64,000 nt of DNA. Source: Chloroflexota bacterium (GTDB taxonomy: Bacteria > Chloroflexota > UBA11872). The stretch is taken from contig JAPOVQ010000017.1 in the NCBI GenBank assembly GCA_026708035.1, forward strand, positions 62,001 to 126,000, written 5' to 3'. The translations under genes were made by a program, and so were the position numbers. This document shows positions 56,815 to 64,000 of the stretch, one piece after another (positions within the stretch are counted from its first letter, which is position 1; each line of letters starts with the position of its first letter). Below the pieces are notes generated by a model. It made no database searches. It saw only the letters and a program-made list of their open reading frames with translations, and was not told the origin of the DNA.

Positions 56815-56847
56815 GCAAATCTCAAACCGCATCAGGGGGAGCGCAAC

Positions 56848-57099
56848 ATGTCGCATGGCGCCCGAGTCTCCATCGAATACTGCAGCCAATGAAACTATCT
56901 CCCTAGAGCCGTCCGTGCGACGGAGGAGATTCTGACTGAGTTCGCGAAAGACGTGGCGGAGTGGACGCTGATCCCCTCCGGCGCCGGCGTGTTCGAGGTG
57001 ATGGTTAACGACCAACTCGTGTTCTCCAAGCGCGCGTTGAAGCGGCACGCCAAGCCCGGCGAGTTGTACCCACTGGTCAGCGAGGCGCTGGCGGGGTAG
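56848..57099 (+). CDS. SelW/Rdx-family selenoprotein (in-frame UGA = selenocysteine)
   Basis: 83 residues if the TGA at 56890-56892 is read as selenocysteine. The ATG at 56848 follows AGGGGGAG. The sequence begins MSHGARVSIEYCSQ, then U15, giving the CxxU redox motif Cys12-Ser-Gln-Sec15. The rest continues in the same frame with the Rdx (SelW/SelT/SelH) pattern: RAVRATEEILTEFAKDVAEW, GAGVFEVMVNDQLVFSKRAL and PGELYPLVSEALAG, ending at TAG. Cysteine-containing bacterial relatives have CxxC at this place. A hairpin directly after the TGA and a selB gene at 62928 support recoding. Probable role: thioredoxin-like redox protein. Confidence 0.9.
56897..56930 (+). ncRNA. bSECIS-like hairpin for selenocysteine insertion
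   Basis: Begins four bases after the UGA. Lower stem ATCTCC (56897-56902) pairs with GGAGAT (56925-56930). An internal bulge follows, then upper stem CCGTC (56909-56913) with GACGG (56919-56923), and a five-base loop CGTGC containing GU at 56915-56916. The loop GU lies 23-24 bases downstream of the UGA, inside the range known for bacterial SECIS elements bound by SelB. It is part of the coding sequence. Confidence 0.75.
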
Positions 57100-57154: not shown

Positions 57155-58957
57155 TCAGTTCTGCATCACGCACGTTGGCGGACACTGGGACTGGGGTGTC
57201 GGTGGGGCGCGCTGCTCCGGCATCTCCAGGGGCGACCCTTCGGGTAAGCGCTCGATGTCCCGGTCGTCGAGCTTGCGCACCCGGTTCCAGGCAAAGCCGT
57301 GCGCGGTGAAGATGTCCAGGTTAGGAATCCACCGACGTTCGCCGCCCGAGACGAGGTAAATGCGGTCGTCGCTGTCCTTGATCAAGTCGCCGTCGCTCAC
57401 GTCGGCGGCAATGAAGACTTGAAAGAAGGCCCCTTCCTTCACGACGGCAAACTCCCGCTCATAGTCCGGCGTGCTTGCCTGGAGATAGAGACTGCGACCG
57501 CTCAGCAGAATCTCTTCCGCTTGGTCGATTCCCATCGTCTTTAGGCCTGACACTTGAACCTGAATGTTCTTGTCCGCGCCGAATTCGTCGACGAACAGCG
57601 CATACCGGTGATGCCACGAGGATGGCCAGGTGCTCATGTAGACGCTGTTCGGCACCATGTGTCGAATCTGTGCCCGCGCATGCTCGGTCAGCACCTTGGC
57701 GTGCCCCGAGACGCCACTGATGTTGCGCCACGCATCCCCGGTCATCTGCACGCCGGCGCGCGCCGAAACTCCGGCCAGCAGCGCCAACGACACCACCCAC
57801 ACCGCCGGTCGTACAAATCGAGAGAGCCGCAGTCGCCGGAGTGCTGCCGGCACCGCCGCGAGGAGAAGCGCCAAGCCTCCCGCCAGCCAGATCCCGAGGA
57901 TGACATGGACCATGGCGAAGTAGCGGTCGTAGTCCGGAATCGTGTAGATCAACGTGAACAGCCCGGTCAATACGGCGGTGCCCAGCGTCCATCCCGCGAA
58001 GCGCCAATCTCGCGCGGCAACAACGAAGATGCCCCCGATGATCGCCACGACCCAGATCCACCCGAACTCGCGCAGCACATCTTGGGTGAACTCGCCCCAG
58101 CGGGGCTCCAGGTACTCGCCGGGTGTGACGAATAGCCTGTCCGTAATGCTGCTGCCGCCCGGCGCGGCCGTAAAGGAGAACGCGTGGTCCCAGATATCGC
58201 GAAACCCGAGCAGCCGCTCAGTCTCGGGCTCTCTGATGGCCACTGGGGTCCAGCGCGCGCGCACCAGATAGAGCCAGGGGGCCAGGCCGACCAGGAACGC
58301 GCCGGACGCCAGCGCCGCTTCGCGCGGGCGCGGCAGGCGCCATGGCCGCCGGGACAGGACGTACGCAAGCGTAAAGGGCAGCATGAACACGCTGAGCGCG
58401 TGATTGGTGAACGACAAGCCGGTGGCCAAGGCCACCACGGCCAACCGCACCGGCGATGGCCGCCGGTGGAAGGCGCGCAGCGCCGCGGCCACGGCCAGCA
58501 TGAGCGCCATCTGCAAACTGAAGGGCTCCGCTTGAACCCCGAGCGTCCAGACGCGGAACCCGGTGCCGAAGACGACCGCCGCTCCAAGCGCCGCCACCCA
58601 GGAGCCCGTGACGTCCCGCGCCACGACGAACAGCAAGACCGTGGCCAGCGCAGCGAACGTCCCATTCACAACGTTGGACGCATGCGCTGGCTCCAAGAAG
58701 CCCAGGGCGTGGGACCCGAGGAATAGCGCGGCCGTGAGCAGCGGATACGACGGCGGGTGGGCGATGCCGCCCAGATACCCCAGCGTCTGAAACTCGCCTT
58801 TGTCGCCGCCGTTCACATACGGCACCGCGCTCAGCCAGTAGAACGGCAACGCCAACCCGGCCAGCACCACGATCGGCAGCCAAAACTGAAAGTGCGGCTG
58901 GGCGGAAACGGCCCCATAGGCCACTCGAATCCGGCGCGCAGCGCTGATTGCAGCCAT
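57155..58957 (-). CDS. DUF2723 membrane protein (glycosyltransferase-like)
   Basis: 600 residues from ATG at 58957 after GGAGG. About ten membrane helices occupy residues 20-400. The first outside loop (AVPYVNGGDKGEFQTLGYLG, GIAHPPSYPLLTAALFLG) carries the Asp/Glu characteristic of DUF2723 and other GT-C-fold mannosyltransferases. A soluble C-terminal region follows; its end (DSDDRIYLVSGGERRWIPNL, DIFTAHGFAWNRVRKLDDRD) is a small repeat-type domain also seen in secreted proteins of related bacteria. Probably transfers a sugar from a lipid carrier to an external acceptor. Confidence 0.85.
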   Translation of the reverse strand: MAAISAARRIRVAYGAVSAQPHFQFWLPIVVLAGLALPFYWLSAVPYVNGGDKGEFQTLGYLGGIAHPPSYPLLTAALFLGSHALGFLEPAHASNVVNGTFAALATVLLFVVARDVTGSWVAALGAAVVFGTGFRVWTLGVQAEPFSLQMALMLAVAAALRAFHRRPSPVRLAVVALATGLSFTNHALSVFMLPFTLAYVLSRRPWRLPRPREAALASGAFLVGLAPWLYLVRARWTPVAIREPETERLLGFRDIWDHAFSFTAAPGGSSITDRLFVTPGEYLEPRWGEFTQDVLREFGWIWVVAIIGGIFVVAARDWRFAGWTLGTAVLTGLFTLIYTIPDYDRYFAMVHVILGIWLAGGLALLLAAVPAALRRLRLSRFVRPAVWVVSLALLAGVSARAGVQMTGDAWRNISGVSGHAKVLTEHARAQIRHMVPNSVYMSTWPSSWHHRYALFVDEFGADKNIQVQVSGLKTMGIDQAEEILLSGRSLYLQASTPDYEREFAVVKEGAFFQVFIAADVSDGDLIKDSDDRIYLVSGGERRWIPNLDIFTAHGFAWNRVRKLDDRDIERLPEGSPLEMPEQRAPPTPQSQCPPTCVMQN

Positions 58958-58975
58958 CACCACCTCCGCGGGCGG

Positions 58976-62019: not shown

Positions 62020-62931
62020 ATGATCGTGGCGCGCACGCGGGCCGAGCTGGCGGCGGCGCGGGCCGGACTCCCGGCTCCCGTCGGCGCCGTGTTCACGATG
62101 GGCGGCTTACACGACGGCCATAGCGCCCTGCTGCGCGCCGCGCGCCGCGAATGCGCCTCCGTGGTGGGCACGCTCTTCGTGAACCCCATCCAGTTCGAGA
62201 TCGAGCAAGACGCCGCGACCTATCCCGGCGACGAGGCGGCCGATTTGCGGCGCTTTGAAACCGAGGGCGCCGACGTTGTGTTTGTCCCCCCGGCCCACGA
62301 AATCTATGGGCCGGCGTTCGCCACCCAGGTCTGCGTACCGACCCTCGGCTCCATGCTCGAAGGCGCCAGCCGGCCCGGCCACTTCGACGGCGTCGCCACC
62401 GTAGTCGCCGTGCTGCTCAACCTCACGCGCCCCGAGCGCACCTACCTCGGGCAGAAGGATTGGCAGCAAACGCGGGTGATCCGGCAGGTCGTGCAGGATC
62501 TTGCGCTCGGCGTGAAGCTGCGCGTGGTTGGCACCGTGCGCGAGGAGGCGGGACTGGCCCTGGGCACGCGCAATCTGCGGCTGTCGGATGAGGGCCGCAA
62601 GGTGGCGCGCGTGATTCATCGCGCGCTGGCGGCTGGGGCCGGCGCCTGGCGGCGCGGCGAGCGGGGGGCGGACCGCCTGGAGGGCGCGATGCGGCGGAAA
62701 CTGGAAGCCGAACCCGGCGTCACCTTCGACTACGCGGTTGCGCGCGATCCCCTCACGCTGGAGGAGCTAACCCCCCAGGCCGGCGCTGCCGTGCTTCTCG
62801 TGGCCGTCTGGGTGGACGGCGTGCGGCTGATCGACAACTTCGTCCTTGGCGACGGTCTCATCGACATCGACCCCGCGCCGCTGCTGGCCGACGCCGCGGC
62901 CGCGACTGGCGGCGGTCAGCCCCCGCCGTGA
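62020..62931 (+). CDS. panC: Pantoate-beta-alanine ligase
   Basis: Joins pantoate and beta-alanine with ATP to make pantothenate. 303 residues, with the HIGH-type motif FTMGGLHDGHSALLRAAR, LFVNPIQFEIEQDAATYP, PGHFDGVATVVAVLLNLTRP, YLGQKDWQQTRVIRQVVQDL and VREEAGLALGTRNLRLSDEG. The usual SSRN of the latter reads GTRN. No panB or panD is adjacent. The stop overlaps the selB GTG by four bases, so selB is probably translated by coupling. Confidence 0.93.
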   Translation: MIVARTRAELAAARAGLPAPVGAVFTMGGLHDGHSALLRAARRECASVVGTLFVNPIQFEIEQDAATYPGDEAADLRRFETEGADVVFVPPAHEIYGPAFATQVCVPTLGSMLEGASRPGHFDGVATVVAVLLNLTRPERTYLGQKDWQQTRVIRQVVQDLALGVKLRVVGTVREEAGLALGTRNLRLSDEGRKVARVIHRALAAGAGAWRRGERGADRLEGAMRRKLEAEPGVTFDYAVARDPLTLEELTPQAGAAVLLVAVWVDGVRLIDNFVLGDGLIDIDPAPLLADAAAATGGGQPPP

Positions 62932-64000
62932 CGGCCGCGACCGACGCCCCGCCCGCGGCCACGGTTGGCACCGCGGGGCATGTCGATCACGGCAAGTCAA
63001 CCCTGGTGCACGCGCTCACCGGCATCGATCCGGATCGTCTCGCCGAAGAGAAGGCGCGCGGCATGACCATTGATCTGGGCTTCGCCTGGCTCACCCTGCC
63101 CAGCGGGCGCTCCGTGAGCCTGGTGGACGTGCCGGGACACGAGCGATTCATTCACAACATGCTGGCCGGCGTGGGGGGCATCGACGCCTGTCTGTTCGTG
63201 GTCGCCGCCGACGAAGGCGTGATGCCGCAGACGCGCGAGCATCTCGACATCGTGACCCTGCTAGGCATCGAGCGCGGCGTGGTCGCGCTGGCCAAGACGG
63301 ACCTCGTGGACGAGGAATGGCTCGAACTTGTCGAACAGGAGCTGCGCGAAACCCTGGCGGCCAGCTCGCTGGCCCAAGCGCCCATCGTCCCCGTCTCGGC
63401 GCGCGAAGGCCGCGGACTGGACGCGCTGCTGGAGGCGCTGGACGCGCTGCTCGCGCAGCCGTTGTCGCGACCGCAGGTCGGCGGACCGCGACTGCCGGTG
63501 GACCGGGCCTTCACCCAGCGGGGCTTCGGCACCGTGGTCACCGGCACCCTGGCCGGAGGGCCGCTGGACGTGGGAGATACGGTCCATCTCTATCCGGGCG
63601 GCGCGCGGACACGCGTGCGCGGCTTGCAGACCCATCGCGCGGCGGAGGACCGCGCCTGGCCGGGACGGCGCGTGGCGGTGAACCTCGGCGGCGTCGCGCC
63701 CGCCGACGTCCCGCGCGGCACGGTGGTCGCCGCGCCTGGGGCCGTCACCGAGACGCGACGCGTGGACGCCACGCTGCGCCTGCTCGCGTCGGCGCCGCGC
63801 GCGTTGAAACCTGGAGAGCGGGTGTCGTGGCATTCGGGCACCGCCGAGGTCGTCGCGGCGGTGCGCTACTTGGAAGCCGACTCCGTCCGGCCGGGGAGCG
63901 GCGGCTGGGTCCAGTGGCGGCTAGGCGAGGCCGTCGCCATCCGCAAGGGCGACCCTTATGTGATCCGGCGGCTCTCACCGCCGATGACCATTGGCGGCGG
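62928..64000 (+). CDS. selB: Selenocysteine-specific elongation factor SelB (partial)
   Basis: 357 codons from the GTG at 62928; the C-terminal RNA-binding winged helices lie beyond the window. SelB delivers selenocysteyl-tRNA to UGA codons by binding the bSECIS. The GTPase has G1 GTAGHVDHGKSTLVHALTGI, then the SelB-specific DRLAEEKARGMTIDLGFAWL, DVPGHERFIHNMLAGVGG and ALAKTDLVD. These separate it from EF-Tu. Domain II begins near PRLPVDRAFTQRGFGTVVTG. Together with the UGA gene at 56848 it shows a working selenocysteine system, though selA, selD and tRNA-Sec are not in the window. Confidence 0.96.
   Translation, partial: MTAATDAPPAATVGTAGHVDHGKSTLVHALTGIDPDRLAEEKARGMTIDLGFAWLTLPSGRSVSLVDVPGHERFIHNMLAGVGGIDACLFVVAADEGVMPQTREHLDIVTLLGIERGVVALAKTDLVDEEWLELVEQELRETLAASSLAQAPIVPVSAREGRGLDALLEALDALLAQPLSRPQVGGPRLPVDRAFTQRGFGTVVTGTLAGGPLDVGDTVHLYPGGARTRVRGLQTHRAAEDRAWPGRRVAVNLGGVAPADVPRGTVVAAPGAVTETRRVDATLRLLASAPRALKPGERVSWHSGTAEVVAAVRYLEADSVRPGSGGWVQWRLGEAVAIRKGDPYVIRRLSPPMTIGG

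Follow-up and report, generated by a model that had tools for sequence, protein, structure and literature searches.

Does a short frame that meets a UGA at its fifteenth codon, in the genome of an uncultivated member of the Chloroflexota, encode a complete selenoprotein, and does this genome hold the genes that would be needed to read it? We addressed this question in a window of 64,000 nucleotides (the whole stretch of DNA that was analysed), for which a preliminary description had proposed that a continuous Rdx-family protein runs across a TGA. We conclude, with a probability of about 0.96, that the gene encodes a SelW-like Rdx redox protein and that selenocysteine (Sec) is inserted at its UGA codon 15 by the standard bacterial route.

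A short Rdx gene running across a UGA codon

The features of the gene are as follows:

56848..57099, plus strand: SelW-like (Rdx, PF10262) selenoprotein gene, from its translation, Pfam and NCBIfam matches, PDB relatives and relatives in other genomes
56890..56892, plus strand: TGA codon 15, U15 of the motif C12xxU15, read as selenocysteine from the translation, the relatives, and the Cys found in PDB chains and in two relatives (L029 and L079)
56834..56840, plus strand: likely Shine-Dalgarno sequence GGGGGAG, 5' of the ATG, from reading of the sequence

When the TGA is read as U, positions 56848-57099 translate into 83 residues (MSHGARVSIEYCSQUNYLPRAVRATEEILTEFAKDVAEWTLIPSGAGVFEVMVNDQLVFSKRALKRHAKPGELYPLVSEALAG), the frame meeting one TGA only, at codon 15, before it ends at a TAG (57097-57099). 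U15 occupies the second redox position of the motif C12-S-Q-U15. The coordinates given in the preliminary description were right, and so was its expectation for the standard code, under which this frame yields 14 residues only. The sequence 5' of the ATG includes AGGGGGAG, and in relatives of the same genus the bases immediately preceding the start codon would be translated into a similar ERN-like string. The gene is solitary, with a minus-strand ftsY (TIGR00064) on one side and a minus-strand gene for a 602-aa membrane protein on the other; scans for sigma-70 promoters and for terminators around it gave no match. This 602-aa multi-pass protein (window 57155-58963, minus strand) has no NCBIfam match and shows, by eye only, a likeness to DUF2723-type glycosyltransferases.

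The Pfam Rdx match spans the TGA, covering residues 6-77 of the 83 (E 3.9e-20; 72.3 bits for a cut-off of 22.6). With C substituted for U, as in all the Pfam and NCBIfam profile scores given here, the protein also exceeds the cut-off of TIGR02174 (CXXU_selWTH; 55.9 for 34.2) and misses that of NF041051 by 0.2 bits (87.8 for 88). Among solved structures, those of the CxxC Rdx proteins 3dex (SAV_2001; E 4.3e-13) and 2fa8 (Atu0228; E 1.9e-12) are nearest and can be aligned over 60-70 residues including YCTQC[NR]WL, their YCTQC facing YCSQU; they carry Cys at the second redox position, whereas the Chloroflexota protein would carry Sec. By homology to these structures, a thioredoxin-like fold is predicted. 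Mammalian SELENOW has a CxxU motif, and across the domain its structure (2npb) is weakly similar in sequence (E 0.084). The SECIS element of eukaryotic SELENOW lies in the 3' UTR, in contrast to the bacterial one, which lies inside the coding region (PMC13188914).

Conservation of the UGA codon and selection on the frame

A protein alignment of 22 rows is invariant at Y11, C12, residue 15, A21, G47, F49 and S60, residue 15 being Sec, with Cys in two rows. Those relatives that bear names are metagenome-assembled genomes (MAGs) labelled Chloroflexi or Chloroflexota, the more distant ones Neomarinimicrobiota, Calditrichaceae and Proteobacteria; judging from isolate labels, many of the close ones probably come from marine sponges. 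An Rdx gene is present in 43 of the 61 genomes of relatives, and 44 of the 45 matches contain exactly one TGA in the domain; the remaining one contains none and has TGC at the Sec codon (L029). The TGA is present in every match from the genus, family, order and class of the source genome, and in 48 of the 49 copies that we collected, a count in which some genomes appear twice. The preliminary description had called for relatives with Cys at this codon, and they exist: the PDB chains, L029 and L079, including one distant relative. When sampling was widened to 251 genomes from across the phylum, the gene was found in 115, and its matches, counted by hand, have one TGA in 95 of 136 cases and none in 41. 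Some Chloroflexota (G046, G099, G116, G123, G151, G172, G179, G200 and others) possess both Sec and TGA-free Rdx copies, and offer a natural comparison of Sec and Cys paralogues.

Taken by itself, a lone in-frame TGA in a short gene resembles a nonsense mutation, and a Cys or Trp codon mutated to TGA, or misread as one by sequencing error, in this genome could be suspected. However, every gene-bearing relative, from genus through family and order to class, has the TGA, in independent assemblies, and the same frame is kept on either side of it in dozens of genomes, which is far beyond chance. Frameshift or decay 3' of the TGA, which had been named in advance as refuting the selenoprotein reading, was looked for in the homologues, and these are intact. 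Relative to relatives of the same genus, omega is 0.15-0.26 for the codons 3' of the TGA (Nei-Gojobori counts). The frame downstream of the TGA is under purifying selection, which also speaks against a pseudogene. We consider this explanation scarcely credible, and already refuted by the conservation of the TGA across independent genomes.

Selection is not uniform along the selenoprotein frame. When the comparisons within the genus are pooled, the 15 codons that follow the UGA have a pS of 0.07 against 0.29 in the remainder, and a pN of 0.00 against 0.05; synonymous change in these 45 bases is thus about four times lower than elsewhere in the gene. Such a low pS directly 3' of the UGA is what would be expected if an RNA element overlapped the coding sequence there.

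A putative SECIS element 3' of the UGA

Two candidate parts of such an element were located:

56909..56923, plus strand: SECIS upper stem-loop, CCGUC (56909-56913), loop CGUGC (56914-56918) and GACGG (56919-56923), from the fold, covariation, base counts and published bSECIS constraints
56897..56930, plus strand: possible lower SECIS helix, 56897-56902 with 56925-56930 (AUCUCC/GGAGAU), from the fold, in this genus and some relatives only

The 49 nt from the UGA are predicted to fold into the CCGUC/GACGG stem and the lower AUCUCC/GGAGAU helix, with a single-sequence energy that is unexceptional and uninformative (-11.9 kcal/mol; z -0.69). Comparison of 25 distinct sequences says more: 92.8% of cells are paired in the upper stem (20-24 with 30-34), two-sided changes occur at three of its five pairs, and its covariation score is 0.334 versus 0.155 in shuffles, none of the 500 shuffles reaching 0.334 and every slid register of the stem scoring lower. 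The strongest covarying pair, 23-31, is U-A in 13 sequences and C-G in 11; this exchange also alters amino acids (Val/Ala, Thr/Ala), so that coupling at the protein level could add to its covariation. At pair 21-33, by contrast, U-A, A-U and G-C replace one another at third codon positions. The loop reads NGU, with G-U after its first base, in 22 of 28 sequences. In four relatives (L009, L010, L028, L031), the same stem is not formed in the same register.

The published bSECIS model describes a loop of 3-9 nt with a G in its first two positions, a stem of 4-16 bp, a distance of 16-37 nt from the UGA and an MFE of at most -7.5 (PMC13188914). The element found here agrees with it, with a 5-nt loop (CGUGC), a 5-bp stem, 21 nt from UGA to loop and the above energy for the 49-nt stretch. 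No Rfam family reached its gathering score anywhere in the window, and the surroundings of the UGA matched none even up to E 10, so that the SECIS assignment rests on covariation and on this model.

The position of this element also bears on whether translation could simply stop at the UGA, a separate downstream start then producing a truncated Rdx protein deprived of the motif. Chance ORFs do overlap the region on the opposite strand, which indicates only that open frames come easily in G+C-rich DNA. In the SelW-like frame itself, on the contrary, the list of ORFs contains no internal one of 60 aa or more, conservation extends across the TGA to include the N-terminal residues and the CxxU motif, and the putative SECIS follows immediately 3' of the UGA. 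A downstream start is, in our opinion, very improbable.

The selenocysteine machinery and the genetic code

Decoding of UGA as Sec involves a dedicated set of host genes, one of which begins in the window:

62928..64000, plus strand, running past the window end (complete in L045, 6929-8818): selB, Sec-specific elongation factor, 629 aa (TIGR00475, 318 bits for a cut-off of 242)

The start of selB lies 5.8 kb downstream of the SelW-like gene, and in the same genus the two genes are about 4-6 kb apart on one contig. The genome (36 contigs, 96% complete) also contains selA (492.9 bits), selD (377 bits) and a tRNA-Sec (selC) with a UCA anticodon. The loss of selA, selD or selC, which the preliminary description regarded as refuting its proposal, was looked for, and all three genes, with selB, are present. 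Among relatives, SelB is found above cut-off in 40 of 43 genomes with Rdx versus 8 of 18 without (Fisher p 8.7e-5, from a hand-made table of related genomes that are not independent). The three Rdx genomes with no SelB above cut-off (G022, G028, G040) are MAGs of 77-89% completeness.

UGA-reassigned codes exist in other bacteria, and the codon could specify an ordinary amino acid such as Trp, through reassignment or readthrough, with no selenocysteine involved. Nothing in this genome points to such a code. TGA is an ordinary stop in 9 of the 18 genes checked and, in several relatives, terminates the SelW-like gene itself, so that the recoding would be local and the code unchanged. Moreover, the full Sec machinery is present, and where relatives replace U they have Cys instead, within a CxxC motif. 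We thus give almost no credence to reassignment.

Taken at the level of sequence, the family, the frame, the Sec/Cys exchange, the selection, the covariation in the SECIS and the complete gene set of the Sec machinery are established, in agreement with the early proposal of selenocysteine at the second redox position of CxxC relatives. In the proposed route, SelD would supply selenophosphate, SelA would convert Ser-tRNA-Sec into Sec-tRNA-Sec, and SelB would bring the latter to the ribosome and recognise the SECIS stem-loop starting 16 bases 3' of the UGA. The product would be a small thioredoxin-fold redox protein of the Rdx (SelW-like) family with the active site C12-S-Q-U15. From motif and family, it most likely acts as a thiol/selenol oxidoreductase, via a reversible C12-U15 selenenylsulfide.

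Other selenoprotein genes and neighbouring loci

The other selenoproteins of the genome were sought by family search only. The selD gene (L041, genome C15:47642-48568) appears to be itself a selenoprotein gene, with an in-frame TGA in GAGUACK. Five AhpC-TSA (peroxiredoxin-like) genes have one in-frame TGA: L073, L074, L076 and L077 (contigs C14, C14, C23 and C13) and C1:197228-197599. The first four were read, and all have a UxxC motif (FWUTAC, FWUGTC, WULSC, FFUGIC), followed in three of them by a similar CAGCUC-GUG-GAGCUG stem-loop sequence. The molybdopterin oxidoreductases (formate dehydrogenase type) of the genome have no in-frame TGA within the matched domain. Beside selB, pgk and gap lies a hopanoid-like cluster (L045, 11464-17650), named from translations by eye, with two squalene synthase-like genes and desaturase/oxidase-like, squalene-hopene cyclase-like and HpnH-like radical SAM genes.

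A known family in a Chloroflexota host

SelW-like CxxU proteins are a catalogued family of bacterial selenoproteins (PMC1794560, PMC9312934, PMC13188914), described with bacterial SECIS elements in Sargasso Sea data and, together with SelD, the most abundant selenoprotein family in the GOS ocean samples (PMC9312934). The gene studied here shares with the bacterial SELENOW-like family (PF10262, CxxU) its domain, motif, length, SECIS just 3' of the UGA and selA/B/C/D, and differs in host lineage only (Chloroflexota, probably sponge-associated), no other distinguishing feature having been found. Genes of this type are familiar and occur frequently in marine bacteria, ours being an ordinary further example; the novelty implied at first is therefore absent. 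We found no published account of a SelW-like selenoprotein in this Chloroflexota lineage, which is weak evidence, most subscription journals lying outside the search. Calling the gene unannotatable by default was likewise too strong, NCBIfam models existing for the family; it stands insofar as standard gene callers truncate or miss selenoprotein genes (2026 review, PMC13188914).

What the locus provides is a clean example of a selenoprotein gene, fully supported by the evidence, which a standard-code gene caller would truncate or miss. Knowledge of SelW-like proteins is unchanged by it. Since SelW occurs exclusively in its Sec form among the gene-bearing genomes of the class, and several Sec peroxiredoxin-like proteins are predicted here, we tentatively suggest, at somewhat less than even odds, that the thiol redox chemistry of this class may rely strongly on selenium, a trait undescribed for the lineage in the papers searched. 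More firmly, the genes identified here indicate that an uncultivated lineage of Chloroflexota uses selenocysteine.
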